A stretch of DNA of 22,740 nucleotides, from IMG/VR virus record IMGVR_UViG_3300007960_000213, positions 1-22,740 of that record, one strand, 5' to 3'. Each line of letters starts with the position of its first letter. Within the stretch, counting starts at the first letter, position 1. This document shows positions 6,812-22,740 of this stretch, one piece after another. The DNA comes from a virus. Below the pieces are notes generated by a model. The model ran no database searches, was not told the origin of the DNA, and worked only from the letters and a program-made list of their open reading frames with translations. Made by a program: the position numbers and the translations under genes.

Positions 6812-7903
6812 ATGAGTTTAACTATAAGAGAAGCGATGAGTGAGTTCTCATATGCCGTAATGCAAAAAGTAGAAGTTCTTCCGGAATTAGATACTGGATT
6901 CAAAAACTTCTTCAAAGAAAACGAAAATGTTACCAGAGGGGTAAAAGTGTTTGTTGAAAGACAGGGTCGTCCGATAGCGAAAGATATTGCTCTCGAAGAG
7001 AAAGGTATCACCACAAGAAGAGATAAGTCAACAGAGAAATTCTATATACCTCCTTACTTTGATTATAAATTCAACTATTCTGCACTTGAAGAGTTTGAGC
7101 CTTTTATGGGAGAGGATAACTCAACAGCTGATATGGGAATCTTACGTGAGTTAGTTGAAAATACAGCTAAAGGAGTTCAGGAGAATGCTGATAGAATGGA
7201 GAGACGTAGAGAGCTTCAAAGAGCACAATCTTTACTTACAGGTATAGTTACCATGGATAATGGTGATAATATCAACTTCCAACGAAAATCTGCATCTCTT
7301 GTAGCATACGATGCAGCTCATGGATGGGATGTAGATACTGTATCTCCTGACATCATACTTAAGCAAGGTGCAGAGTTTCTTATAAAAGAAGGTAAAGTAA
7401 GTACAAAAAGACCTTACAATATCATAGCAGGTTCAGCAGCAATTTCAGCGTTGAAAGATAATCCTATTTTTCAAAAATATACTGACAATAGAAGATATTC
7501 GGAAGGTCAGTTTGAAACGGCAGCACCAACAGAAGGACTTGTAAGTCATGGACGTATTAATGCCGGTGATTTTAGATTTAATCTTTGGGGATACCCTGCA
7601 TATTACGATGATCCTGATACAGGTTTAGATACTTCTTATATGGATACTAACAAGATTATCATACTTCCTGATGCACAGGTGTTCTCAATGCAGTTCTGTG
7701 GTGTTAAAGGATGGGATAGAGATCCGTATCAAGCAGGAGCAGTTCCAAAGATCAAAAAGACTAAAATGTACTCTTATGAGATTAAGTCTATTGAGTCTTG
7801 TGCATTAGAATTAGGTTTGAGATCATCATTTACTCCGATTTTGGATAAAGTAGATGCAGTATTCACAGCTCAGGTAGTAGCAGATCAACAAGGACAGGGA
7901 TAA
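6812..7903 (+). CDS. Major capsid protein, lambda gpE family (PF03864)
   Basis: This is the HK97-fold shell subunit. At 363 residues it matches the size of lambda gpE (341). Segments typical of the family are the N-terminal start SLTIREAMSEFSYAVMQKVE, the strand VKVFVERQGRPIAKDI, the E-loop region KFYIPPYFDYKFNYSALEEF (about 77-96), the long spine helix NTAKGVQENADRMERRRELQ, and the late PDAQVFSMQFCGVKGWDRDP followed by a MYSYEIKSIESCALELGLRS region. There is no sign of an N-terminal delta domain, which fits with the separate scaffold in the preceding protease gene. Confidence 0.92.
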   Translation: MSLTIREAMSEFSYAVMQKVEVLPELDTGFKNFFKENENVTRGVKVFVERQGRPIAKDIALEEKGITTRRDKSTEKFYIPPYFDYKFNYSALEEFEPFMGEDNSTADMGILRELVENTAKGVQENADRMERRRELQRAQSLLTGIVTMDNGDNINFQRKSASLVAYDAAHGWDVDTVSPDIILKQGAEFLIKEGKVSTKRPYNIIAGSAAISALKDNPIFQKYTDNRRYSEGQFETAAPTEGLVSHGRINAGDFRFNLWGYPAYYDDPDTGLDTSYMDTNKIIILPDAQVFSMQFCGVKGWDRDPYQAGAVPKIKKTKMYSYEIKSIESCALELGLRSSFTPILDKVDAVFTAQVVADQQGQG

Positions 7904-8355
7904 TGAAAAAAATAGCATTAATATTGTTGTTAGGTGTAATAAGCCTAACAACATTTTCACAAAGTAGGCCACAGGCTGATCAGAGTTTAAAGTATGGCGA
8001 TACTTGGTCGTTGTACTTAGGTAAAAATGCAGACACTATCGGTGTTGGTGACAGTACATGGACAAGAGTAGTTAATAAATTGACTACTGATAAAGTTGGC
8101 GTTGAATGGAGGATTTATCTTGACAGTCTTTCAGGTACAGCAGACACAGTAGACTTGTTCTTTTACTATTCTACACATGGATTGACGTACACTTTAGAAG
8201 ATACCGTTACATGGTACGGCACTCAGGATACGTTGATTATATTCGATGATGATACTACCAGAGTTGGAGATTACAATAAAGTATTTATACGAGAAAGAGG
8301 TGATAACTTCAAATTCAGAATAGATACTGTCGCAAACAAATTTTATTACGAATAA
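7903..8355 (+). CDS. Signal-peptide-bearing beta-rich protein of unknown function
   Basis: I do not recognise this 150-residue protein. Residues 1-20 (MKKIALILLLGVISLTTFSQ) form a clear Sec signal peptide of the type common in Bacteroidota secreted proteins, with cleavage likely after FSQ. There is no lipobox Cys and no later membrane segment. The mature part is rich in Thr, Asp, Tyr and Val with alternating patterns (DTVDLFFYYSTHGLTYTLED), suggesting a beta-sandwich. There is no other Met in the protein, so a cytoplasmic ATG-started form is impossible in this frame. The start overlaps the capsid gene stop (TAATG), tying it to the head operon. It could be a periplasmic or surface moron, for example for superinfection exclusion, or a structural protein whose signal-like N-terminus is misread. 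Confidence 0.7.
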   Translation: MKKIALILLLGVISLTTFSQSRPQADQSLKYGDTWSLYLGKNADTIGVGDSTWTRVVNKLTTDKVGVEWRIYLDSLSGTADTVDLFFYYSTHGLTYTLEDTVTWYGTQDTLIIFDDDTTRVGDYNKVFIRERGDNFKFRIDTVANKFYYE

Positions 8356-8783: not shown

Positions 8784-9167
8784 ATGGGGACATTGCTAGA
8801 TATAGCGAGAGAAGATGCGAGAAGTTTTGTCAGTGATACTGACGGCTTCTCGACCCCTCTAACTTTCACAACACTTACAGATGAAGAGTTCACAATAAAT
8901 GGCCTTGCATCAGTTCATAGTCAATCATTCGATTCAGATGGATTGCCGGTAATAGGAGATAATTCACACATATGTTTTTCGGAAAAAGATGTGAATGATG
9001 CCGGTTACACAACAAGAGATGCAAATGGTAATGTAAATATAAGAGGTTGGAGAGTTGCATTTAATCACTCCGTTGGGGCAGTAAGTGCAATACTTAGCAG
9101 ACCTGAGCCGGATAGTACGTTAGGATTAATAAGAGTAATGATTACCAATTACAACGACAATGAGTAA
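8784..9167 (+). CDS. Head-tail closure protein, gpFII-like
   Basis: This 127-residue protein sits between the gpFI-like and tail terminator genes, the place of the lambda gpFII or Mu gp36-type head closure proteins that plug the connector and receive the tail. It starts with an amphipathic segment (LLDIAREDARSFVSDTDGFS), then beta-rich sequence (LTFTTLTDEEFTINGLASVH) and a late GWRVAFNHSVGAVSAILSRP. The pattern of a beta-strand domain carrying a Ser/Asp-rich loop fits the family. Its ATG abuts the previous TAG, and its end overlaps the next start by 8 nt. The call is mainly by order and size. Confidence 0.5.
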   Translation: MGTLLDIAREDARSFVSDTDGFSTPLTFTTLTDEEFTINGLASVHSQSFDSDGLPVIGDNSHICFSEKDVNDAGYTTRDANGNVNIRGWRVAFNHSVGAVSAILSRPEPDSTLGLIRVMITNYNDNE

Positions 9168-10398
9168 AATAAGCACGATAATAGAATTTGCGAACCACGA
9201 GAAGGTTAGGGCTAAGATAGCTCAGATACTTGCTGTGGAGATAGCAAATCAGATCAGTCTTATTGATGCTGAATTGGCAGATAGTCCAACTCCTGAAAGA
9301 GAAGAAGTACTGAATATTTACAAAGCTGCATTACCCACAACAGTATGGGATAGCAGATTTTTACAGCCAGGACCGGATGAATTGCCTTTCCTAAATGTTG
9401 TATTCATGAAAAGTCCTCTTGATGGACTTAATACAGTGAGTACTCAGGATGGAATGGTGCAGTTTGTAGTTGAAGCATGGCAGGGAGCCGAAACCGATTC
9501 TGAAAATAGAGGAGATTATTTAGCTTCAATTTATTTGCAAAGACTGCTTGAAGTTGTAAGGTCTATACTTCAATACAGAGGCTATCTTAATCTTGATCTT
9601 GATCCTTATGTGGGTAATATAAATAAGGTAAGTGATATTGAGATAATGCAACCTGAAGATAATGCCGGTAAGAACGCTCAAAACCTTATTTACGGTAAAT
9701 TATCAATTACAATTAGAATTCCTGAGTGTTCAGATAATTTACCCGGGATAGCATGGTTTGAGTCAGTAACAGGTGTTGAACTTAACGAATCAGAGTTAGG
9801 ATATAGTTGGGATGTAATTCAGAGTGAGGACTTTTTATACAATTTGGCAGCAGCAGAAAAGAATATTGCACCTGATGGTTATAGAGTTCCTACCAGAGCA
9901 GATTATTTATTGCTATCATCGACATTATCTAATCCTAAAGGGGAAAAATTAAAATCGACTACAGGTTGGACTAATCCGGGTACTGATGAATTTGGTTTCA
10001 ATTGGCTTAATAAAGGCTACAGACAAGAGGATGGTCAATTTGCAGAGTTAATTCAGGGCTTTTATTCTGGATTAAGATTGCAGCCTAATCCACCGGGTAT
10101 TCCTGTTCCTGCAATGGCTGTTATACCAAACAATCAGGATTTGTTTTCATTGGATGATGTAGGTGCAAAATCAGGATTACCAATAAGGTTAATTAAGGAA
10201 GACTCAACAGACGAAGGTAGTTTTACCGATATTGATGGTAATGTTTACGGAACCACGAAAATAGGCGTTCAGGTATGGGCAACTAAAAATTTCAGATGTA
10301 CTAAATATAATGACGGAACACCTATCCCACGATTGGATAGTGACAGTGATTGGGAAAATGACACAGATGGAGCATATTGTATTTATAATATTAATTAA
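9160..10398 (+). CDS. Tail terminator protein with C-terminal permuted FISUMP domain
   Basis: Residues about 1-195 look like a tail terminator (lambda gpU / Mu gp37 type), which caps the tail tube and joins it to the head: LPFLNVVFMKSPLDGL (about 75-90), FVVEAWQGAETDSENRGDYL (about 102-120), the helix ASIYLQRLLEVVRSIL, and a last strand YGKLSITIRIP. Residues about 220-412 are a FISUMP module. First comes the half usually second (FLYNLAAAEKN, GYRVPTRADYLLLSSTL, LPIRLIKED), then the half usually first (DIDGNVYGTTKIGVQVWATK, YNDGTPIP, DGAYCIYN at the very end). The module must project from the neck ring. At 412 residues the gene is about twice normal terminator length because of the fusion. Module boundaries are by eye. 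Confidence 0.7.
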   Translation: MSKISTIIEFANHEKVRAKIAQILAVEIANQISLIDAELADSPTPEREEVLNIYKAALPTTVWDSRFLQPGPDELPFLNVVFMKSPLDGLNTVSTQDGMVQFVVEAWQGAETDSENRGDYLASIYLQRLLEVVRSILQYRGYLNLDLDPYVGNINKVSDIEIMQPEDNAGKNAQNLIYGKLSITIRIPECSDNLPGIAWFESVTGVELNESELGYSWDVIQSEDFLYNLAAAEKNIAPDGYRVPTRADYLLLSSTLSNPKGEKLKSTTGWTNPGTDEFGFNWLNKGYRQEDGQFAELIQGFYSGLRLQPNPPGIPVPAMAVIPNNQDLFSLDDVGAKSGLPIRLIKEDSTDEGSFTDIDGNVYGTTKIGVQVWATKNFRCTKYNDGTPIPRLDSDSDWENDTDGAYCIYNIN

Positions 10399-10408
10399 AG
10401 GATAAAAA

Positions 10409-11974
10409 ATGGCATCAATAAGCACAAATGTAGACTTGGGAAGAGTCTCAGCAGTAGTTGGCTATGGAATAGAAGCCACATTGGAAGGTATCGGATTGGG
10501 ATTTCTTCCGCAAAGCATCGGAATACCGGCACAGGCCGACACGGTAAATGAATCAACGGCTCCGAGTGTATTGAGTTTTACTTCTTCGAAAGAGGTCGGA
10601 GATGAGTTCGGTTACGGATCACAAGCATATCAGATAGCAAGGATTTTAAGACCAAAATCGGGAGATGTTTTAGGAGGTATTCCAACTAAGATATTAAAAG
10701 TAGCAGCAGCCGGAGGAGGTGCAGCGAAAGTTATAACTACTACTGTATCTGGCACTGCCACAGGTAATGCTACGCATTATCTAAAGGTAAATGGAAGAAC
10801 TCAATTAGATGGTGACTCATATGCATTTTCAGTAGAGACAGGAGATACAGCATCAGAAGTAGCTACAAAGATGGCATCTGCAATGAATGCTGTGCTTGGG
10901 TGTCCTATGACAGGATCAACATCAACAGCAGATTTTATCGCAACAGCGGATTCAGTAGGTGCATTTACCGATGAGTATAATGTAGAGGTTTTAACGCAAG
11001 GTAATGCAGTAGGCATGAGTTATGCAACTGTATCTACAGCATCGGGTTCAGGAGTTCCGTCAATATCTACTGCTCTCGGTAATATCGGAGATGAATGGGT
11101 TACTATGATAGTAAACGGATTTGGATCTGAAGAAACTATTTTAGATGCACTGGAAGACTTCAATGGAGATGCTAATACAAAAACAGGTAGATACGATGCA
11201 ACTATTTTTAAGCCTTGTGTGGCGTTCTTTGGTGATAATAATGTAAGCTTACTCACTGAATCATCAGAGGGTGCAGGAGATGGCATTACAGAAATAACTG
11301 ATACTCCAACAGGAAGAAAGTCTGAGATGACAAATGTATTTTGCCCGGCACCAAATTCTAAAGGTACAGCAGCAGAAGCAGCAGCAAATATGTGTGTTCT
11401 TTATGCTCCATTAGCACAGAGTACTCCGAACGTTGATCCTATTGGATTGAGTTATCCTGACATGCCTATTGATTCAGATACGGATATTGGGGATTTTGCA
11501 GATGTTGCGAAAAGGGATCAGATCGTTAAAATCGGTGGATCTACAGTTAAACTTGTTTCAGGGTTATACAATGTGGTGGATCTAGTTACAACTTATCATC
11601 CGGATAATGAGCCACAAACAGCGGTATTGTTTAGATGGGTTAGAGATGTTGTAGGAGTAGACTTTAACTTCAGATATGCATACAAGTTGCTAGAGGAGAT
11701 CTATGTTGTAGGTAAAACAATCGTACAGCCGGGTGAAAGTTCTGCAACAGGGACAATATCTACAAACAGATGGAAAAGTATACTTGCAAGCCAATATGGC
11801 CCTTCATTAGTAGATAACGCTCTTATGGCTGATTTAAGCTACTTTATTGAGTCGCTTAATGTTCAGATAGGTGAATCGAATCCAAATAGATTTGAGACTA
11901 ATTTCAAGGCAAAAAGAACGGGTACTGCAAGAGTACTTGATACAACTAATCAAACAACTTTTAACTTCGGATAA
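10409..11974 (+). CDS. Contractile tail sheath protein (Mu gpL-like)
   Basis: The sheath subunit surrounds the tail tube and contracts at infection. At 521 residues it matches Mu gpL (about 495). The N-terminal part carries a strand-rich segment with GDEFGYGSQAYQIARIL (about 63-79). A central part has DALEDFNGDANTKTGRYDAT then IFKPCVAFFGD, a typical sheath core. The C-terminal core domain includes TYHPDNEPQTAVLFRWVRDV then VGVDFNFRYAYKLLEE, followed by a last strand TNFKAKRTGTARVLDTTNQT. A Ser/Thr/Ala/Gly-rich stretch (about 100-220) is probably the protruding domain on the tail surface. Together with the following tube gene, it makes this phage a myovirus. Confidence 0.88.
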   Translation: MASISTNVDLGRVSAVVGYGIEATLEGIGLGFLPQSIGIPAQADTVNESTAPSVLSFTSSKEVGDEFGYGSQAYQIARILRPKSGDVLGGIPTKILKVAAAGGGAAKVITTTVSGTATGNATHYLKVNGRTQLDGDSYAFSVETGDTASEVATKMASAMNAVLGCPMTGSTSTADFIATADSVGAFTDEYNVEVLTQGNAVGMSYATVSTASGSGVPSISTALGNIGDEWVTMIVNGFGSEETILDALEDFNGDANTKTGRYDATIFKPCVAFFGDNNVSLLTESSEGAGDGITEITDTPTGRKSEMTNVFCPAPNSKGTAAEAAANMCVLYAPLAQSTPNVDPIGLSYPDMPIDSDTDIGDFADVAKRDQIVKIGGSTVKLVSGLYNVVDLVTTYHPDNEPQTAVLFRWVRDVVGVDFNFRYAYKLLEEIYVVGKTIVQPGESSATGTISTNRWKSILASQYGPSLVDNALMADLSYFIESLNVQIGESNPNRFETNFKAKRTGTARVLDTTNQTTFNFG

Positions 11975-11976
11975 TA

Positions 11977-12378
11977 ATGGCAGCAATAGTAGCAGGAGAC
12001 GTTAAGGAGATAGCAGTAGACCACCCTGGATTGGGTGGCTATGTGTTCGAGCATAAGTCAACAGAAGACTTCAATTTCAGAAAAGGAGGTTTTCAAAACA
12101 GAGATGACGATGGTGATAACACATCATCCGGAACCAAGATATTTGTTAAGGAGAGAAAATCTTGGATGTTAGAAACTACAGTAGGAGCCACAGAAGGTGC
12201 TCATGATTTTCTTCAGCAATTGCATGAGAGTTCTGTAGAGGCAATAGTTACTTTGGTATTTCAGAATGGAAAAACAAGATCGGCTACAGGATTGCCTGTA
12301 GGAGATATTGACCAAAATGCATTTGCAGGGACTATACCTTTTAAGTTTAGTGGTTCTGGAACTTTTGATGAAGTATAA
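11977..12378 (+). CDS. Tail tube protein
   Basis: This 133-residue protein directly after the sheath gene is the expected inner tube subunit, forming stacked hexamers through which DNA passes. It is beta-rich with the loop GGFQNRDDDGDNTSSGTKIF (about 34-53). Further strands follow (VEAIVTLVFQNGKTRSATGL), and it ends FKFSGSGTFDEV, the typical late strand of tube proteins. Its length is close to that of small contractile-tail tubes (about 115-170). The gene starts two bases after the sheath stop (TAA-TA-ATG). Confidence 0.75.
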   Translation: MAAIVAGDVKEIAVDHPGLGGYVFEHKSTEDFNFRKGGFQNRDDDGDNTSSGTKIFVKERKSWMLETTVGATEGAHDFLQQLHESSVEAIVTLVFQNGKTRSATGLPVGDIDQNAFAGTIPFKFSGSGTFDEV

Positions 12379-12401
12379 ACATTATAAATAAATATCAAAC
12401 A

Positions 12402-12881
12402 ATGGAAAATTTACACGGAAGAGAATACGCTGAACAGTTATTGAATGAGTGGTTTGATGAAATAGGCGTAGATGAATCAAGGAGGATAGAGATAGATGAC
12501 GTTGAAGATGCCGAATTAGAGCACGAGACAAGTGATGATGTAGATGTCATCAGAGAGAAGGTGATAATGGCAATACGCCGCAAGCAATTAACTCTGAGTG
12601 ACAACAAGGAGTTCCAGTATAGATTACTTGATCCTATAAAAAAGGATAGTGGAGAAATATTGGTGTCAGATATAACTATCCAAAACCGATACAAACATGC
12701 TGATTTCAGAAGAAATATGGTTGGTGTTAAACAGAATGATATGTTCGGAATGTTTGATGCTCAAATAGCAGCTAGATGTAAGATGTCGAGAATTGCCGTA
12801 GGTAATTTATATGACAGAGATTATGGGTTGCTGCAATCCATAGTGAGCCTTTTTACAAGGGCCGAGTACACTACGATGTAA
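12402..12881 (+). CDS. Tail assembly chaperone, zero-frame product
   Basis: This 159-residue protein lies between tube and tape measure, the slot of P2 gpE, Mu gp41 and lambda gpG, which keep the tape measure soluble during tail assembly. It is acidic and helical at the N-terminus (LLNEWFDEIGVDESRRIEID). The family-like central segment is MAIRRKQLTLSDNKEFQYRL followed by LDPI (about 56-79), matching the pattern of a small beta domain with IR.G.L....G...Y.L..P. The C-terminal part is helical (MFGMFDAQIAARCKMSRIAV). The frame ends at 12881 although the tape measure starts only at 13020. The intervening bases are open in the -1 frame (see the next entry). Confidence 0.75.
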   Translation: MENLHGREYAEQLLNEWFDEIGVDESRRIEIDDVEDAELEHETSDDVDVIREKVIMAIRRKQLTLSDNKEFQYRLLDPIKKDSGEILVSDITIQNRYKHADFRRNMVGVKQNDMFGMFDAQIAARCKMSRIAVGNLYDRDYGLLQSIVSLFTRAEYTTM

Positions 12882-13027
12882 AAAGTTCAATAGCTGTAGT
12901 CGGCTTAGAAACAGGATGGAGTCCTGAGAGACTAGATAATTTGTACATGGATGATTATGATATTTATGGTTTGTATTGGTGGACCAGAGAGATTGATGAA
13001 TTAAACAAACGTAGTAACGATGGGTAA
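12815..13027 (+). CDS. -1 frameshift extension of the tail assembly chaperone
   Basis: The -1 frame relative to the chaperone gene is open from 12815 to a TAA at 13025-13027, overlapping the chaperone's end by 67 nt and the tape-measure start by 8 nt. It has no ATG until 12947. It encodes a protein-like tail: PFYKGRVHYDVKSSIAVVGL, then ETGWSPERLDNLYMDDYDIY and GLYWWTREIDELNKR. The pattern of GW.P..L..L.. plus an aromatic-rich end is like the extensions of other frameshifted chaperones. The likely slip site is the codon pair CTT-TTT at 12849-12854 within CCTTTTTA, where Phe-tRNA can re-pair perfectly in -1. The P-site pairing is imperfect, so this is not a canonical heptamer. The fused product would be about 208 residues. 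Confidence 0.65.
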   Translation, partial: QRLWVAAIHSEPFYKGRVHYDVKSSIAVVGLETGWSPERLDNLYMDDYDIYGLYWWTREIDELNKRSNDG

Positions 13028-14714
13028 AAAAACAACAGCTTGGGTAGAGTTTAGGGCTTTGGAAAGGGTGACTGCTCCTATACGGAAAATGTATAGAGTT
13101 TCTAAGCGTGTTTTTCAGTCAATGCGTTTCGATGTAAAAAAGTTTAGTCGTCAATTAAGAGTAGCTAATCAACAAGTAAATAAATTAACTTCAGGACTGA
13201 GAAGAGTAACACCCGGACTTGGATTACTGAGTGCCGGCGGGTTACTTTTGGGCGGGAAAAACGCTGTGCAAACTTTTGCACAAATAGAGGCATTAGGTAC
13301 ATCTATAGAATTCGCATCCGGTTCAGCAAAGGAGGGTGGCAAGAACATGAAGTTTTTAAAAGATATGTCAAAAGACTTAGCTATTGACTTCATGAGTGCA
13401 GCAGAAGGATTTAAGCTATTTACAGCATCAGCAGCAGCGGAAAAAGTACCAATGGATCAAATTAGAGACACTTTTAAGGGAGTTTCTAAAATGATTCGTG
13501 TTCAGGGATTGGACGCAGAAAAAACAATCTCGATATATCGCGCTCTTGGTCAGATGTATAGCAAAACCCGGGTCATGGCACAAGAAATGAACTTACAGCT
13601 CGCAGAAGCCCTCCCGGGCGGTAAGGCATGGATGGCTATGGCAGGTAAATATAAAAATGTTGCTGAGTTATCTAAGGAGATGGAATTAGGTAATGTAATC
13701 TCAAAAGAAATATTGCCTGAGTTTGGTAAAATATTGGATCAGATTGCATCTCCAGGTGTAATGAAAGCTATGATGACTGCCAACGCTAAAATTACCAACT
13801 TAGCAAACGCTTGGTTATTTTTGAAAATGACAATAGGCGAAATGATAGTTAATACAGGTGTGTTGGAGTATATCGACAAAGTAATATCATCAGTATATAA
13901 GTGGTTAGATGCAAATAAGCAGCTTATCGGTCAGAATATGAAAAAATGGTTCGATAACTTTGTTGATTTTGCTAAGTGGATAATTGTAAATCGAAAGGAA
14001 ATAATATCAATCATAAAAGGGATAACATTAGCATTTATAACATTCAAAGCCGTTATAATAGGAATGAATATTGCTGCATTTTTCACTAATCCTATAGGGT
14101 TGGCAATCGCAGCAGTTGCAGCATTAATCGGATTGTTAACTTACGCGATAGATAAGGGTAGTAATATTCAAAGTGAAATAGTTAGCGGTCAAAAGCACAT
14201 GGTAGGATTTTTGGAGCAATCATTTACTGCATTATCTGTAATGTGGGATGGGATATGGGAGCTTGACATGAATAAAATTATGGGAGGTCTTCACATAATG
14301 TATTTAAGGATTAGAAGAATGTTTAAATCTTTGGAGGCTGTGTGGCACTCAATTAATCCAAGAGGACTAAATTATAAAAAGGAGTTAATGGCAAAGGCTT
14401 TGGCAGAAGAAAGAGCAATAGGAATAAAGCAAGCGCAAATAATCAAAGAGATTAATGCAGGTACTTATTCTTGGGGATCTCATAGTGCAGAAGTAGATGA
14501 AGGTGCATCTATTACTCCTGAAAGAGCTGAACTCCTTGATAGAATATCAAAAAAGATGCCAGATGCTTTGGAAAAATGGGGTGTTACAGATACATCATTA
14601 ATAAATGTAAATCTTAAAAACCTAACAAATACTCCGATGGAAGCAGAAGTTGTAGATAGTGCAGATTATACAAAATTGTGGCTTACGGGACCTAATGGAG
14701 AGATAATAAGATAA
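13020..14714 (+). CDS. Tail tape measure protein
   Basis: This is the rod-like protein that sets tail length and is ejected before the DNA. The 564-residue protein starts with a basic helical region (about 15-65), then a Gly/Leu-rich segment (LGLLSAGGLLLGG). The tape-measure N-terminal family motif is at about 171-206: SIYRALGQMYSKTRVMAQEM then NLQLAEALPGGKAWMA, corresponding to the usual G.v..EEL.QQL.E.lPGA. A long hydrophobic part (about 328-376: IISIIKGITLAFITFKAVII and then IGLAIAAVAALIGLLTYAI) is the expected membrane-inserting segment. At the commonly used ratio of about 0.15 nm per residue, the tail would be roughly 85 nm long, an inference only. Confidence 0.85.
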   Translation: MGKKTTAWVEFRALERVTAPIRKMYRVSKRVFQSMRFDVKKFSRQLRVANQQVNKLTSGLRRVTPGLGLLSAGGLLLGGKNAVQTFAQIEALGTSIEFASGSAKEGGKNMKFLKDMSKDLAIDFMSAAEGFKLFTASAAAEKVPMDQIRDTFKGVSKMIRVQGLDAEKTISIYRALGQMYSKTRVMAQEMNLQLAEALPGGKAWMAMAGKYKNVAELSKEMELGNVISKEILPEFGKILDQIASPGVMKAMMTANAKITNLANAWLFLKMTIGEMIVNTGVLEYIDKVISSVYKWLDANKQLIGQNMKKWFDNFVDFAKWIIVNRKEIISIIKGITLAFITFKAVIIGMNIAAFFTNPIGLAIAAVAALIGLLTYAIDKGSNIQSEIVSGQKHMVGFLEQSFTALSVMWDGIWELDMNKIMGGLHIMYLRIRRMFKSLEAVWHSINPRGLNYKKELMAKALAEERAIGIKQAQIIKEINAGTYSWGSHSAEVDEGASITPERAELLDRISKKMPDALEKWGVTDTSLINVNLKNLTNTPMEAEVVDSADYTKLWLTGPNGEIIR

Positions 14715-15175
14715 TGGAGAACTATTCTATATATGATAACGGTGATGGAGGACAGTTGTTCATTCAGAATAATGACATCCAGAAAAGTGGAGGATTAGGA
14801 GTTGCAGTTTATTTGAAGCTTTTTGGCGGTAATGTTGATGCATCTACTACAGGTCAAGAGGTATCCGGTGAAATAAGAAAAGATTGGTGGGGAAATAACC
14901 GATTTGATACTAGCAGAAAATGGATTAACTCAGAGACAGAAAGAGTACTTAGGGGTGCTTCTCTTACTGATCAGTCATTGATAGATATTGAAGAAGCTGT
15001 TAAGACAGATCTTGAATCGTTAAAGATTTTTGGAGAGATAAGTGTAAGTGTTGCTTATCCGGGATTAAATAGAGTAAGTATAGCGATAACCATTAAGCAA
15101 GTTGCACAGGATGCAGAGATACTTGTTGTATGGGATGCTACTAAAAATGAAATTATACAGAATATTGAAATATAA
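14714..15175 (+). CDS. Baseplate wedge-like protein, Mu gp46 family (PF07409)
   Basis: This 153-residue protein directly before the baseplate J gene corresponds to Mu gp46. Supporting features are the early aliphatic/Gly segment LGVAVYLKLFGGN (about 28-40), the conserved IRKDWWGNNRFDTSRKWIN (about 54-72) and RVLRGASLTDQSLIDIEEAV followed by KTDLESLKIFG (about 77-107). After these comes a beta hairpin (ISVSVAYPGLNRVSIAITI). Together they match the gp46 order of DWW...S.W, a helical unit and a hairpin, which is also related to the gp25/gpW-like wedge fold. Start and stop both overlap neighbours by TAATG. It follows the tape measure directly, where Mu-like phages usually have hub and spike genes. 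Confidence 0.7.
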   Translation: MENYSIYDNGDGGQLFIQNNDIQKSGGLGVAVYLKLFGGNVDASTTGQEVSGEIRKDWWGNNRFDTSRKWINSETERVLRGASLTDQSLIDIEEAVKTDLESLKIFGEISVSVAYPGLNRVSIAITIKQVAQDAEILVVWDATKNEIIQNIEI

Positions 15176-16371
15176 TGGCTGAAAATATACCAAAAATATC
15201 AGAACTAGAAAGTCAATACTTAAACAACTATGCTTCAAGGTTGGGGGTGGATGTTTCGGACTTGGGCGATTCTTACATAGTAGAGGCTAAGACTCAGGCA
15301 GCAGTGGTATATTCTTTGTATCTTAAATTATCTAAGGTTCAGAATAATATATATCCGGACTTGGCAGAGATGGATGTATTGATGAGATACGGATATGCTA
15401 TATTAGGAAGGTATCCTGAACCTGCTACACAGGGCGTATTTTCGGCTATAGCATTGGGCACAGGAACTATTCCTGCACAAACTCAATTTGTGGCGAATAA
15501 TGATACATCGGCAGCAGGTAAATTGTATATAGTTGATCAAGATTGGATAATAAGTACATCGGGTATAATCGAGATAAGAGCATTAGAGGGCGGCATAGCA
15601 TCAGATCTTAATCAGTCCGACAAGTTAACGTCAATACAGCCGTTAACTGGAATTGACAATGAAATAGTGGTTACATTGCCTGTTATTGTAGAGCCTGTAG
15701 ATGCAGAAGATATAGAACAGTACAGGCAGGATGTATTGGCAGGAATAAGAATACTTCCTCAGGGTGGGGCACCGGGAGATTATAGATTATGGACTCTGGA
15801 GATACCGGAAGTTCGCACAGTGTATCCATTTTTGAATACGACTGAGATAGGTGATGTGTTGATTTATGTAGAGGCCACACCGGAAGCGACAAAGGCAGGT
15901 GAAGAGACAGGAGTCCCAACACAGGATACGTTGGATGATGTATATACTGCTCCTTCAGGAGGTAATCCAGAGTCAGGGGCCGTAATATATGACTCGGTAG
16001 AGCAAAGGGGAAGAAAGCCTATTACAGTTAATAATATAATACCTCAGGCTGTGACACCAATACCTGTAGATATAGATTTTACAGACTTGTCAGATGAGAA
16101 TATAGCTGATTCCATAAGAACGGCACTTGATAGTTATCTGTATGAAATAAGGCCATTTGTTGCAGGGGCACAATCGTTGAGGAGTAAAAACGACATATTG
16201 ACAATTGGAGGAATCACAGCACAAATATTGGAGGTATTGACAGGAACAGGCATAACATATACAAATTTGGATATGAGTGTTTCAGGAGTAGGAAGCATTG
16301 CGAGTTTTACATTCCTGTTTGGTAATTATCCATATTTGAGAAATATAAATAACAATGGAAGTCCGATATGA
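15175..16371 (+). CDS. Baseplate J-like protein (Mu gp47 / P2 gpJ, PF04865)
   Basis: This is the wedge protein that links the baseplate hub to the tail-tip and fibre proteins. It has 398 residues. The order of features is the family's own: a helical N-terminus (SQYLNNYASRLGVDVSD), the beta part with G-rich turn (LEGGIASDLNQSDKLTSIQP), and then EPVDAEDIEQYRQDVLAGIR (about 172-191), corresponding to the G.D.E..E..R.R.l signature. Next come LPQGGAPGDYRLWTLEIPEV (about 193-212) and a beta strand GDVLIYVEA. The C-terminal half (RGRKPITVNNIIPQAVTPIP then VDIDF) is the usual peripheral domain. It overlaps the next gene through ATGA at 16368. Confidence 0.88.
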   Translation: MAENIPKISELESQYLNNYASRLGVDVSDLGDSYIVEAKTQAAVVYSLYLKLSKVQNNIYPDLAEMDVLMRYGYAILGRYPEPATQGVFSAIALGTGTIPAQTQFVANNDTSAAGKLYIVDQDWIISTSGIIEIRALEGGIASDLNQSDKLTSIQPLTGIDNEIVVTLPVIVEPVDAEDIEQYRQDVLAGIRILPQGGAPGDYRLWTLEIPEVRTVYPFLNTTEIGDVLIYVEATPEATKAGEETGVPTQDTLDDVYTAPSGGNPESGAVIYDSVEQRGRKPITVNNIIPQAVTPIPVDIDFTDLSDENIADSIRTALDSYLYEIRPFVAGAQSLRSKNDILTIGGITAQILEVLTGTGITYTNLDMSVSGVGSIASFTFLFGNYPYLRNINNNGSPI

Positions 16372-18338
16372 TAAAAGTAACTGACATAATACATAAACTT
16401 GTTTCCGGCCTATATCCAACAGGTAGGGCTTGGCGGTATGGTCGTGACTTTAAGAATATAGGAGCTACAGATATTACCGGGTATGGCTACTTGTATAATT
16501 GGTATGCCATGACTGATGATAATTTTTCAACGATAGAAAACTTTAGGATTCCTAATGATGATGATTGGAATGGATTATTTACTCACTTAGATCCGAATGG
16601 AGGTGTTAAGGCCAGTGGTATATTCGAATTGTGGGATGATGATGTTAGACGTAATTCGGAATATTTCGGACAATCAGGACTTGATTTAGTTGCAGGATGC
16701 AGGAGAACATCAGCAGGAACGTTTGATGGAACATTAGGTGAGTTCGCTGCATATGGATCATCTACAGAAGGTGCTACTCCCAGTTTATGCACATATTGGT
16801 TGCTGTATGCATCGGGAACCATATATCAGGATGTTACAGGAGGTCTTAAAAAACAAGGAAGTTCTGTTAGATTGGTTGCAGACGGAGATTATACATCTCA
16901 AATACTTGAAGATTACGATGGGAACAGGTATGGATCGGTTTACATAAACGGCCAAACATGGCTTACTGAGAACTATAGGTGTACGCATTTATCTGATGGA
17001 ACGTCAATACCAAATGTTACTGATGGTACAGCTTGGGGTGCTTTGACGACATTAGCGTACTGTGCATTTGATAACGAAGAGAATAATGTTACCCGCGAAA
17101 GTTTAAATAATGTGTCTTTGTCAGACAAAACGATGAGTGCTAAAACTCAGGGATATGATGATGTTAATACAAGTATTGGTAATATATTAAATCAGATTAT
17201 TCCAGACAACGATGCATTTGATTTAGATGATATTGAATCTTGGGAACGAGTTTTGGATATTGATAACAGCACCCTTACTAATGACCAAAGAAAAAATATA
17301 ATACTTGCAAGATTGTCATATCCAAATGGACAGTTGTATAGACAGACACAGGAATTTATACAAGAACAATTACGAGCCAACGGGTTCGATGTTTATGTGC
17401 ATGAGAATAGGTTTAATACCGGGACTAATCCTTTCCCGTTTGAGCCTGTAGATATTAATTCTGCAGTATATGGAAATGTGGTGTACGGAGAAACAACATA
17501 TGGCAATGTAGGTGTTAAGTATGATACATTACTATGCAATTATGTGGATAAAACAATTGACGAGGCAAATCAGCCTATAATATCAGATAAACAAAATAAT
17601 ATATTTTTCATCGGAGGAGAAGTTTATCCTGAGCAAGCATATATTGATCCTGCAAGAGAAAAAGAGTTTAGGCACTTGGTATTAAGTTTGAAACCTGCTC
17701 ATAGTGCTGCAGCTTTGATAACAGGCAGTAGTAATGTTGATAGAGGATACTTGTATAATTGGTATGCTTCACAGTTGGTAGGATTTAGTACTATTACAGA
17801 TTTTGATGTGCCAACTGATACAGAATGGGCAGCATTAGAGTCGTATATAAATAATGCATTCATAGACGGGAAAATATTAAAAGCAACGTATGGTTGGCCT
17901 ACGAATCAAGGGATAGATTTACATGGATTTGCAGCATTACCAAACGGATTAAGAAGTGGAACAGGTGTCTTTACTTCGGTAAGTGATAATTGTAGGGTTA
18001 TGTTATTAGACAATGCAACAAGTGCATATAAAGGAGTGTATATGTCTGATGCAGACGGGATAATAAATACAAACCCATTCCCAAATAGTATAGGATATAG
18101 TATTAGGATGATATATAAAGGTGGTGGAACCCCGGATAGTGTTGTTTATGATAAAGATGGCAATGCATATGATGTGGTCCAAATAGGTTCTCAATATTGG
18201 TTAGCACAGAACTACGCATGTACGCAATTGAGTGATGGAACTGAAATACCAAACATAACAGATGATACAGATTGGGGGAATGACACATCAGGAGCAAGAT
18301 GTGCAAGTAATAATGACGAAAGTACTGTTTTTAAATAG
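16368..18338 (+). CDS. gp48/gpI-like tail-tip protein with two permuted FISUMP modules
   Basis: The backbone is a DUF2313-type tail protein (Mu gp48, P2 gpI slot), which links the baseplate to fibres. Its N-terminus LVSGLYPTGRAWRYG (about 11-25) is separated from the rest (about 245-450, with SWERVLDIDNSTLTNDQRKN then IILARLS and IQEQLRANGFDVYVHE) by FISUMP module B (about 39-240). Module C follows at about 459-656 and ends the protein. Both modules begin GYLYNWYA, pass a P.D..W motif and an SVRLV or SIRMI strand, then DGNRYGSVYINGQTWLTENY or DGNAYDVVQIGSQYWLAQNY, and end in LSDGT.IPN. That order is circularly permuted relative to standard FISUMP domains. The middle part also has a repeated YGNVVYGETTYGN. 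The protein is about three times the length of a bare gpI-like protein. Confidence 0.78.
   Translation: MIKVTDIIHKLVSGLYPTGRAWRYGRDFKNIGATDITGYGYLYNWYAMTDDNFSTIENFRIPNDDDWNGLFTHLDPNGGVKASGIFELWDDDVRRNSEYFGQSGLDLVAGCRRTSAGTFDGTLGEFAAYGSSTEGATPSLCTYWLLYASGTIYQDVTGGLKKQGSSVRLVADGDYTSQILEDYDGNRYGSVYINGQTWLTENYRCTHLSDGTSIPNVTDGTAWGALTTLAYCAFDNEENNVTRESLNNVSLSDKTMSAKTQGYDDVNTSIGNILNQIIPDNDAFDLDDIESWERVLDIDNSTLTNDQRKNIILARLSYPNGQLYRQTQEFIQEQLRANGFDVYVHENRFNTGTNPFPFEPVDINSAVYGNVVYGETTYGNVGVKYDTLLCNYVDKTIDEANQPIISDKQNNIFFIGGEVYPEQAYIDPAREKEFRHLVLSLKPAHSAAALITGSSNVDRGYLYNWYASQLVGFSTITDFDVPTDTEWAALESYINNAFIDGKILKATYGWPTNQGIDLHGFAALPNGLRSGTGVFTSVSDNCRVMLLDNATSAYKGVYMSDADGIINTNPFPNSIGYSIRMIYKGGGTPDSVVYDKDGNAYDVVQIGSQYWLAQNYACTQLSDGTEIPNITDDTDWGNDTSGARCASNNDESTVFK
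16488..16507 (+). repeat. 20-bp direct repeat, copy 1 (start of FISUMP module B)
   Basis: TACTTGTATAATTGGTATGC here is identical to 17748-17767, exactly 1260 bp (420 codons) downstream, and encodes YLYNWYA. It marks the start of each FISUMP module in the tail-tip gene. In-frame recombination between the copies could swap or delete modules. Confidence 0.85.
17748..17767 (+). repeat. 20-bp direct repeat, copy 2 (start of FISUMP module C)
   Basis: This is the second copy of the repeat described at 16488-16507. The surrounding module sequence has diverged much more than this stretch, pointing to strong conservation of YLYNWYA, gene conversion, or a fairly recent module duplication. Confidence 0.85.
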
Positions 18339-19329: not shown

Positions 19330-19896
19330 ATGCCATATGCATACGGATATAAATATGGAATAAGAGTTGGTCGGTTATTGAAGCCATGCACTGATAATCT
19401 TATATTTTGGTTAGACAGGTATAATGCTGAATATACTGAATTATTAGATAAAAGCGGTGAAGGCAATGATGTTGATGTGTTAAGTAATTCAAAATATCTT
19501 GACGGAACATCAACAATAACGGTATATGATGAGGGAAATTTTGTTCATGTAATTGATACGGTTAGCATTAATCAATCAATAGACAATACTATTTTTTCTG
19601 AAATTGAGTCTTCTTTAGATTCAGAAAACACATTGTTTTTTAAGAATTTTGATGAAAACAAAATAGTTTTTGGTACTGACGGATCGAATAATTTTTCAGG
19701 GTGGTTTGGACAAATTGCGCTTGCAAATAACTATGGCGGTGAATTTATCCGCATTGCAAATTCATCGGGAATAGATGAGGAGGATTTCAATATATTAAAA
19801 TCAAAGGAACAATATTATGTAAATCAAGCCTTCCCGTTTGGCGAAATTAAACCTGGAATGAATATTAATTATAATATGAATGTAACAGCATTATGA
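19330..19896 (+). CDS. Tail fibre-like protein of unknown function
   Basis: This 188-residue protein is not assigned to a family. It starts with a Tyr/Gly-rich segment (MPYAYGYKYGIRVGRLLKP) and then has DNLIFWLDRYNAEYTELLDK followed by SGEGNDVDVL. This resembles the beginning of concanavalin A/LamG-like beta-sandwich domains found in phage fibres (pattern W.D......DKSG.GND). The rest alternates beta strands with Asn/Asp/Ser turns (FGTDGSNNFSGWFGQIALAN). It overlaps the spike gene by 4 nt (ATGA), so the two are probably translated together. A role in carbohydrate contact or spike attachment is inferred. Confidence 0.5.
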   Translation: MPYAYGYKYGIRVGRLLKPCTDNLIFWLDRYNAEYTELLDKSGEGNDVDVLSNSKYLDGTSTITVYDEGNFVHVIDTVSINQSIDNTIFSEIESSLDSENTLFFKNFDENKIVFGTDGSNNFSGWFGQIALANNYGGEFIRIANSSGIDEEDFNILKSKEQYYVNQAFPFGEIKPGMNINYNMNVTAL

Positions 19897-22085
19897 GTAT
19901 AAAAAAAGTATTTAACACAAAAAACGCTGCTTTAGCAATGATGAATTTTATTGATTCAGAAGCAGATAAGATAAATAATCAGGTAGGTTATATATATGAC
20001 AATATTGATAGCTTAGATTTTGGAGCTAACACAGATACTTCGCAGCCAGTTGCGAAGACTATAGAGGCTTTGCCGTCTGATTTCCCGCTTGCCTACGAAA
20101 ATGCAGTTAGATTATACACTACTGCTCCATTGACGAATTTTACTAGAATAGGAGTCAAGACGTTTCATGAATACAAGGCGTTGAAAAACGGCAAAATTAA
20201 ACTATCGTTTTGGGTTGAACAGTATAGTACTGCATATCAGTATAACATTGGTTTGGGAGTTGGTATTGTATACTATAGAGGATTAGCCCCTTCGGTGACG
20301 AAAAGTATAAATTGCGTAATTCCTACACGAACGCTAGTAGACACTGCGATACCTGCAATTGATGCAGGAGGTGTATATAATGAGAGCTTTACTGACTACG
20401 ATATTACCATTAATGACTATGTAACTTATGGAGGTGTTAATTATTTTAATATCCAAGCAGAGATAACAACAGATATTGCTCAATCTGACTTTTTCGAGAT
20501 CTCATGGAATGCATTAGGTGTTACTAACTTTGCCGGTGGCGAAAGTCCTGATATATTAACATTCGGTCATACGGTTGTTGATTTTGATGAAGAAATAAAT
20601 TATAATATTGATTCGTCATTTATTACTCAGATAAAAAACAAATTGTCAAATCAAGAAGACAATTATGTTGATAGTTATGTTTTAGATAACAAGATTATTG
20701 ACATTATGGAAAACTCAGGTTTAGTAAAATATGCAAGTACAGAGGATTTTTCTAATACACACAATGGAAAAATCACATCAGAGCAAACAGACATAACAAC
20801 TTCAGTTGTGTATGACGAATTGTTTAATAAAAAATATACAGTTACAAAGAACACTGGCAACTTAGAAAAGTTTGTTAGTTCTGTTACTCCGAAGTCAGTT
20901 ATGACATTCACTCCCCCTGTGACTGATTCAGATACACTAAAGGATGAAGGTACGTTGTCATTTTGGATTAAACGCTCTGAGCTAAATGGTAACGGCATTA
21001 TATTCACAAATGGAAGTGGTGGAACATGGTTATTAACACAAGCTCATTTATTAGCAGAAGGATTTGTAAAAACCCGTTGGGAGTCTGGCACTGATTACCA
21101 AGAATTACGGGTTAATTCAGTCGATGGAGATTATACACACATAACAATTAAATATAACGCTGATATTTCGATATATTACTTCATACGTGTATCAATTTAT
21201 GATCTCGGCAGTGATGTTAGTACAATTAGTTTATATAACCCTACATTTATTTACTCTGATAATGTTAATCCTTATCACTATTACAAATCACTGTCTGAGA
21301 AAAAAGAAAGTGAACTAAGAGGTAAAAACGCTGTATTGATAGGAGATTCACAGTATAATAATGGTATTGTAGCGTCAAGAGTTGCGAAAGACTTGGGTGT
21401 TAATATCTTTGATGCTCATTTTGGAGGGCATTCCATGAAAATCAGATCAAGTCAGCTTGCATCACCAACTTATCAATCATTTTATCATTATGATTTAAGA
21501 AGCAATGTTTTAGGGCTTGCAGATATAGACTTGTATATCATAACAGCAAGTACAAACGATGGAAGTGGTGGAGGTGTTGCAACTGAGGCATCCGTTAATT
21601 ACGTACTGAACAACTACCCTGTGTACGGCGATGATGCAGGAACTATTGCAGCAAAACAAGCGTTATTCGATGCATTATCAAATCAAGATGTTGATGATAA
21701 CTTTACATACATGGCGTGTTATGCTGCTTACCTAAAGCAGATCTATGAAAATAATCCTGATTCAAAGGTGATTATATGCAGCGTACCAATTTCCGCAATA
21801 GGATTGTTAACAGGCAATGAAGTTGACGGACATGGTGAATGGGATGTTGGCGAAGATGCAGATACCGCAAGAACGGCTTATGAAGCAACGTATGATGCAA
21901 TAAATTCAGAGAATTTAACATTGTCAAAAAGATATAATACATATTACGCTGATTTTGAAAAAAAATGTGGTATGTCATTTGAAAACTTTATCTATAAATC
22001 AATTGACGGCACACACTGGCTTGACAATGTGAGTGAGGCAACTGCATCAACATTAATTAAAGAAATTAAAGGTATAGACTTGTAA
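19893..22085 (+). CDS. Tail spike/fibre with C-terminal SGNH/GDSL esterase domain
   Basis: This 730-residue protein has a short helical head (about 1-40), a beta-rich part (about 60-235), a connector (about 240-325), a probable beta-sandwich (about 326-455, with GTLSFWIKRSELNGNGIIF) and a C-terminal SGNH hydrolase (about 476-730). The catalytic blocks are present in order: GDSQ with nucleophile Ser486 (block I), the Gly of FGGHS at about 511 (II), ASTNDG with Asn555 (III), and SIDGTHW with Asp705 and His708 (V). Such domains remove acetyl or other ester groups from surface glycans. On a phage tail this implies deacetylation of capsule or O-antigen during adsorption, an inference from family and position. 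Between blocks III and V lies an insertion-like stretch (about 560-605). Confidence 0.8.
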   Translation: MSIKKVFNTKNAALAMMNFIDSEADKINNQVGYIYDNIDSLDFGANTDTSQPVAKTIEALPSDFPLAYENAVRLYTTAPLTNFTRIGVKTFHEYKALKNGKIKLSFWVEQYSTAYQYNIGLGVGIVYYRGLAPSVTKSINCVIPTRTLVDTAIPAIDAGGVYNESFTDYDITINDYVTYGGVNYFNIQAEITTDIAQSDFFEISWNALGVTNFAGGESPDILTFGHTVVDFDEEINYNIDSSFITQIKNKLSNQEDNYVDSYVLDNKIIDIMENSGLVKYASTEDFSNTHNGKITSEQTDITTSVVYDELFNKKYTVTKNTGNLEKFVSSVTPKSVMTFTPPVTDSDTLKDEGTLSFWIKRSELNGNGIIFTNGSGGTWLLTQAHLLAEGFVKTRWESGTDYQELRVNSVDGDYTHITIKYNADISIYYFIRVSIYDLGSDVSTISLYNPTFIYSDNVNPYHYYKSLSEKKESELRGKNAVLIGDSQYNNGIVASRVAKDLGVNIFDAHFGGHSMKIRSSQLASPTYQSFYHYDLRSNVLGLADIDLYIITASTNDGSGGGVATEASVNYVLNNYPVYGDDAGTIAAKQALFDALSNQDVDDNFTYMACYAAYLKQIYENNPDSKVIICSVPISAIGLLTGNEVDGHGEWDVGEDADTARTAYEATYDAINSENLTLSKRYNTYYADFEKKCGMSFENFIYKSIDGTHWLDNVSEATASTLIKEIKGIDL

Positions 22086-22740
22086 TGGAACTTACTTACA
22101 TCAATACAACGACTAGCACATCACCAATACCTCTGATTAATTCAAGTCGGGGGTGTTGGGTGTTTCAAAACAATAATACGCCTGATATTCAGAGTGATTT
22201 TATTTATGCAATTATTGATGACGAGGGTAATGCTGTGTTCACGACCAAAACAGGATATACTAAAATATTTGAAGCCCTCGAAAATATACGTGTTGTTTAC
22301 CGTAATGACAGCAAGATTGATCTTACAACTTACGGTTACGGTATTGTATCAGTTGATGAATTGTCGGCACTTACCGATGTAGGCTCAAAAATATTCTTTA
22401 GACGAATATCAGATTATGAGATTGATAGATTATTGATTTATTCAGTAGTTCCAGATTATGATTGCTATAAGAAAATACTGAAATATATTAATGAGCCTTT
22501 AGAGATACCAACATCGGATCTTGTATTTAAGCAATCTGCAATAAGTTCTGGAACAGGTTATATACTAAATGAACTTGGGACAAACAGAGACTACTTATAT
22601 CTTGATGGTACAGCTTCGGTAGATACCGGGTATGTTGGTACAGGTGATGATATTAATGCATTATATGTGGTACTAAACTTAAAGGATGTCACATACGGAG
22701 CAAATCAAGATTATTTGATAGATAATACAAATGGATCTGG
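22085..22740 (+). CDS. Fibre-like protein, 3'-truncated by the window end
   Basis: The frame opens at the ATG overlapping the spike stop (TAATG at 22083-22087) and runs without a stop to the window end, giving 218 residues. The first about 95 residues contain SSRGCWVFQNNNTPDIQSDF, IYAIIDDEGNAVF and KTGYTKIFEALENIRVVYRN. A middle part (DYEIDRLLIYSVVPDYDCYK) follows. From about residue 170, YLYLDGTASVDTGYVGTGDD with LYVVLNLKDVTYG looks like the start of a concanavalin A/LamG-like sandwich. Coupling to the spike gene suggests another host-contact structural protein. The product cannot be named from this fragment. Confidence 0.65.
   Translation, partial: MELTYINTTTSTSPIPLINSSRGCWVFQNNNTPDIQSDFIYAIIDDEGNAVFTTKTGYTKIFEALENIRVVYRNDSKIDLTTYGYGIVSVDELSALTDVGSKIFFRRISDYEIDRLLIYSVVPDYDCYKKILKYINEPLEIPTSDLVFKQSAISSGTGYILNELGTNRDYLYLDGTASVDTGYVGTGDDINALYVVLNLKDVTYGANQDYLIDNTNGS

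Follow-up and report, generated by a model that had tools for sequence, protein, structure and literature searches.

The window analysed here, a 22.7-kb stretch of DNA, belongs to a tailed phage with a contractile tail. Its genes run in the order portal, head genes, head-closure protein Hc1, gene 9160 (phrog_4671), tail sheath, tape measure, baseplate wedge, Baseplate_J, gene 16368 and tail-fibre-like genes, and its baseplate proteins are similar to those of Flavobacterium phages. The product of gene 9160 is probably a neck or tail-terminator protein, because the gene stands between those for Hc1 (phrog_4598) and the sheath (phrog_165). Gene 16368 encodes a member of the Mu Gp48-like baseplate proteins (phrog_4920), as judged from its conserved core, its LYPTGRAW motif and its place after the Baseplate_J protein; the match of PF10076 to this gene (E 6e-4) lies under the cut-off of that family.

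Other ORFs of the window deserve mention. Within the head gene cluster, positions 7903-8355 encode a 150-aa protein with an apparent signal peptide (MKKIALILLLGVISLTTFSQ). A long protein at 19893-22085 gives sub-threshold matches to Laminin_G_3 and to GDSL lipase/acylhydrolase families and could be a tail esterase, and the last, truncated ORF (22085-22738) weakly resembles SseK/NleB-type glycosyltransferases (E 0.004-0.008, under the cut-offs).

Both gene 9160 and gene 16368 additionally carry domains of the FISUMP family (TIGR02145 / PF09603, Fib_succ_major). In what follows, the A half is the N-terminal half of the canonical domain, from DGN to YCxYN, and the B half its C-terminal half, from LYN to SVRLV; AB and BA denote the order in which the halves occur. 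The three modules found, and the parts of the host proteins around them, are listed in Table 1.

Table 1. Positions of the FISUMP half domains and of the host parts of genes 9160 and 16368 in the window; "profile" in the module rows gives the match of the genome-level profile search.
Feature	Positions	Strand	Remarks
Host part of gene 9160	9160..9804	+	phrog_4671, E 4e-17, residues 1-215, profile 1-198/204
Module 3, B half (LYN .. VPT .. PIRLI), gene 9160	9829..10194	+	Pfam, genome-level profile and half-domain HMMs; profile 50-142 at 9826-10044
Module 3, A half (DGNVY .. IGVQVW .. DGTPIP .. YCIYN)	10231..10389	+	ends 2 codons before stop; profile 2-41 at 10258-10389
N-terminal host segment of Mu Gp48-like baseplate protein (LYPTGRAW motif), gene 16368	16368..16478	+	
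Module 1, B half, in loop after LYPTGRAW, gene 16368	16479..16877	+	profile 45-186 at 16467-16877
Module 1, A half	16914..17075	+	insert ends at about 17090; profile 1-48 at 16938-17093
Core of Gp48-like baseplate protein (phrog_4920)	17157..17711	+	phrog_4920, E 5e-39, residues 264-448
Module 2, B half, after LKPAH at C-terminus of host core, gene 16368	17736..18113	+	profile 50-185 at 17742-18110
Module 2, A half	18156..18317	+	ends 6 codons before stop; profile 1-45 at 18177-18323

Half order and position of the cut

The modules share with FISUMP its motifs, its two conserved blocks and its extent as a single domain of about 190-200 residues, and both genes score past the curated cut-offs of PF09603 and TIGR02145 (61.7 and 102 bits, cut-off 33.9; 55.7 and 97.3 bits, cut-off 41.65), the PF09603 E-values being 1.4e-16 for gene 9160 and 6.4e-29 for gene 16368. 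Unlike canonical FISUMP, in which the A half precedes the B half, all three window modules run B then A, with their termini at the loop between YCxYN and YGxLYN and with the old termini linked. In this regard, a profile of the permuted family aligns over its columns 4-136 to columns 61-193, the last 133, of the canonical profile (E 1.6e-49), and this correspondence sets the cut between YCxYN and YGxLYN. The E-values of the profile matches exclude chance as the source of the reversed order.

The genome-level profile search gave no FISUMP match in the 22.7-kb window beyond the six half matches of Table 1, and therefore no A half has been missed N-terminal to any module. Half-domain HMMs built in this work likewise read BA, BA and BA, and nothing else in the window. 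The initial annotation of this DNA had described three FISUMP modules with the same permutation and the same cut, naming an overlooked canonical first half upstream as what would speak against them; Pfam and NCBIfam profiles, the half-domain HMMs and the profile-profile alignment all bear out its description, no such upstream half exists, and the residue ranges it gave were right to within a few residues.

Insertion into and onto host proteins

FISUMP is absent from all 82 Gp48-like homologs collected, which come from 80 viral contigs and two Flavobacterium phages totalling 0.9 Mb. When the window protein is aligned with 52 non-redundant homologs, these show, in this order, LYPTGRAW or an equivalent motif, a loop a few residues long and a helix, and in the window protein this same loop holds module 1 together with some extra residues. 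Module 1 is thus a loop insertion, since the homologs show the empty site. Modules 2 and 3, placed after the core with its conserved LKPAH end and after the phrog_4671 part of gene 9160, respectively, are terminal appendages rather than loop insertions, so that within the window the argument for a loop cassette applies directly only to module 1. The idea that the permutation lets the fold enter loops of host proteins, advanced earlier for all three copies, stands for module 1, with its empty site, and for internal and nested modules of other phages, and does not apply directly to the terminal modules 2 and 3. Separately, one Gp48-like homolog (L156:7917-8750) carries an unrelated repeat insert, made of YTTEDG units, in the loop that houses module 1 in the window.

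Among closed viral ORFs, 24 of 86 BA modules are internal to a larger protein as compared with 1 of 37 AB modules (Fisher p 0.001, rising to 0.006 when one family is collapsed). The canonical domain has a short A-to-B joint, usually of 4-6 residues, which suggests that the chain ends of the permuted module would lie close together in space. We propose that, with the old chain ends joined by a linker of 11-29 residues and the new ends placed at the short loop between YCxYN and YGxLYN, the module could enter or extend virion proteins without breaking them, and would be tolerated in or on them because both its ends sit at one loop. In the window, the module is inserted into a loop of the baseplate protein and appended both to that protein and to the probable neck protein; in other phages, the sequences place it inside further copies of itself.

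Nested modules

Insertion of BA modules into BA modules, absent from the initial annotation, was found in the present analysis. In many proteins of the order BABA, the second B half is missing its LYN strand, and an additional one occurs 15-23 residues before the first LYN. The resulting layout, seen in eight aligned proteins, consists of an outer LYN strand, a complete inner unit (LYN, B, A), the outer B half devoid of LYN and the outer A half. A LYN-less second B half occurs in 12 proteins of a larger set, or in 11 once a near copy is set aside, and a pattern search located the extra LYN before the first B half in all of them except L330 and L331; among controls, the pattern appeared in 1 of 86 single BA proteins, where it is spurious, and in none of 9 spaced tandems. 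L330 and L331 (1603-3624 in each, one residue apart) were read by eye: three N-terminal LYN strands precede three B-A pairs, LYN being absent from the B halves of the second and third pair, and on this reading the two are doubly nested permuted FISUMP proteins. A second site of self-insertion occurs in L294 (2233-3960), where one BA module interrupts the A half of another at profile 28/30. An AlphaFold2 model of the nested protein L010, made with only 8 sequences, reached a pLDDT of 46.7 and is uninformative on nesting, for which the sequences nevertheless make a strong case. As a related observation, about 157 residues of another domain, resembling DUF1566, interrupt the A half of a canonical FISUMP domain in L020/L021 (4902-6734) at profile 38/40.

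Distribution in phages and bacteria

The initial remark that the permuted order may not be unique proved right: at least 98 distinct phage proteins with a single BA module were recognised by the half-domain HMMs. Over all queries, the deduplicated viral loci comprise these at least 98 single-BA proteins, 45 AB and about 30 multi-module ones. Counted as distinct viral proteins, the permuted query returned 85 BA versus 13 AB and the canonical query 23 BA versus 34 AB, ratios that are not unbiased given that the viral samples were gathered with FISUMP queries; BA makes up a large fraction of viral FISUMP with either query. It also occurs as a stand-alone protein of about 210 aa, RPMD05_88, in the complete genome of Rhodobacteraceae phage LS06-2018-MD05. 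Viral contigs scanned with a single protein, either the whole gene 16368 product or its core, gave no relatives, and alignment queries were needed.

In 80 bacterial genome loci, a sample of about 110 FISUMP ORFs retrieved by a query biased towards BA, the matches listed include 97 AB ORFs, 7 AB-type tandems and 1 BA. That single bacterial BA ORF among the matches listed (L203) lies on a Bacteroidota MAG contig with prophage-type neighbour genes. The permuted form of FISUMP is, then, a phage form of the domain, enriched in phages.

One permutation or several

A free tree inferred from 185 columns of 113 modules explains the BA rows with 6 changes, where shuffling gave a mean of 37.8. When BA was constrained to one clade, the log-likelihood was 5.36 above that of the free search, with a p-AU of 0.551. 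A single origin of BA is accordingly not rejected and is slightly favoured, not proven, because most branches of the tree have low support. The earlier proposal of one permutation followed by spread is therefore compatible with the tree, its single origin being the part that the weak branches leave unproven. Window modules 1 and 2 are sisters (96), consistent with a duplication inside gene 16368; module 3 is placed elsewhere.

Tandem canonical repeats of bacteria (L169, L170, L218) offer a possible route. They share with the phage modules the layout B1-linker-A2, at junctions such as SVRLVKDSIPPLTVTDIDGN, although they begin with A and end with B, whereas the phage modules have B first and A last. 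Their linkers measure 9-11 aa, nearly the length found in most BA modules (11-17 aa); over 59 non-redundant modules, the range is 11-29 aa. As the B1-linker-A2 junction is already present in a tandem pair A1B1-A2B2, loss of the outer halves would give BA directly, and plausibly this happened once.

Alternatively, tandem AB repeats could have been permuted repeatedly and independently, the loop between YCxYN and YGxLYN being the only permissive cut. This possibility, which we consider unlikely without dismissing it, would account for the 6 changes of the free tree and for BA rows (among them L022, L028 and L076) that fall among AB there, and bacteria do possess the required tandems with their short linkers. 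The tree that keeps BA together is, however, the better one by the log-likelihood difference given above, at an AU value that does not reject it; and, despite the bacterial tandems, BA was seen only at phage-type loci among the bacterial matches listed. A single permutation thus remains the reading that we prefer.

Predicted fold

For module 2, AlphaFold2 supplied with 43 permuted sequences predicts a single closed domain containing both halves (mean pLDDT 91.6, pTM 0.88, about 97 in the A half), and not the two separate incomplete domains that had been named as a way in which the permutation could prove illusory. A fold search against predicted viral structures found two proteins that match module 2 in full, over 209-224 columns (TMq 0.85 and 0.83). 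A third match spans only 130 columns (TMq 0.52), as would be expected in a sequential search if that protein were canonical.

Against the PDB, the fold search with the module model returned no match below E 1.1, and the sequence search no convincing relative of the permuted family. A sequential search can miss permuted folds, and hence the absence of a C-type lectin match weighs little. A likeness of the permuted profile to the UHRF1 SRA domain, with matching motif order (E about 0.03), was treated as chance, the fold search having given it no support.

It could be argued that B and A are independent half domains that are merely adjacent and complete other chains through an intermolecular swap in a trimer or hexamer; virion proteins are oligomeric, and their chains could in principle exchange strands. 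We regard such an arrangement as improbable, in view of the confident monomer model with its single closed fold, the stand-alone 210-aa protein with just one half of each kind, and the fixed order and bounded linkers of the 59 non-redundant modules. The closed, permuted domain is the interpretation retained below.

Putative function

The position of the modules on neck and baseplate proteins, together with general knowledge of the family, points toward surface or glycan binding as the most likely function, an assignment that we hold with about even confidence. Most likely, the module would display a lectin-like, surface-binding domain on the tail.

In human microbiomes, Fib_succ_major is among the target domains of diversity-generating retroelements (DGRs), and it is similar by HHsearch to DUF1566, also a DGR target (PMC4159848). 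On these grounds, and since a reverse transcriptase occurs in 3 of 43 FISUMP-bearing records, the modules might be DGR targets, as some canonical FISUMP and DUF1566 proteins are, with the permutation serving hypervariation. We judge this very improbable and rejected the link: no reverse transcriptase is present in the window record, itself incomplete, or in 39 of 42 related records, and the adenine-specific repeat pairs of the three records that have one lie outside the permuted genes. The modules share with the DGR-diversified C-type-lectin-like phage proteins (Mtd, Tentaclins, DUF1566) the likeness between Fib_succ_major and DUF1566 and the DGR targeting of both families (PMC4159848), and differ from them in these respects; the fold search, which can miss permuted folds, found no C-type lectin structure. 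DGR-like repeat pairs, differing at template adenines, were noted in L015 (7258 and 7449), L023 (7247 and 7413) and L249 (503, 906 and 1102), phages that also carry permuted FISUMP genes and have the variable copies in other genes.

Finally, that the modules are ordinary canonical copies with an overlooked first half, or an assembly artefact, can be practically dismissed, given that the window has only six half matches and that the arrangement recurs in many independent contigs as well as in the complete genome of a named phage.

Discussion

Taken as a whole, our results make it highly probable that the window encodes complete, permuted FISUMP domains belonging to a phage lineage of plausibly single origin, and that they act as a cassette in or on virion proteins, likely displaying a lectin-like domain. 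The wider reading, to which we incline only slightly, is that one ancient permutation would have produced a phage-specific plug-in cassette with both ends at one loop, which spread among virion proteins and inserted into itself, giving nested and doubly nested forms.

Portable surface domains are familiar in phages. Immunoglobulin-like decoration domains, of a different fold, occur on or in many phage structural proteins much as the FISUMP cassette does; to our knowledge, neither circular permutation nor nesting of the same domain is known for them. The FISUMP family is itself known, and what is new is its permuted, nested phage form, which differs from the canonical one in occurring in phage virion proteins, often inside them. 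A literature search, with subscription literature outside its scope, found no description of permuted or nested FISUMP domains. Annotation pipelines hide permuted modules, because profile searches report them as two partial FISUMP matches.

Permuted domains generally come to light in single proteins. In the present case, by contrast, permuted modules rival canonical ones in phages, are all but missing from the bacterial loci sampled and correlate with insertion inside other proteins. These features make testable in nature a long-assumed rule, namely that domains whose ends meet are those that get inserted, and the nested copies constitute a natural experiment in which a domain has been inserted into itself.
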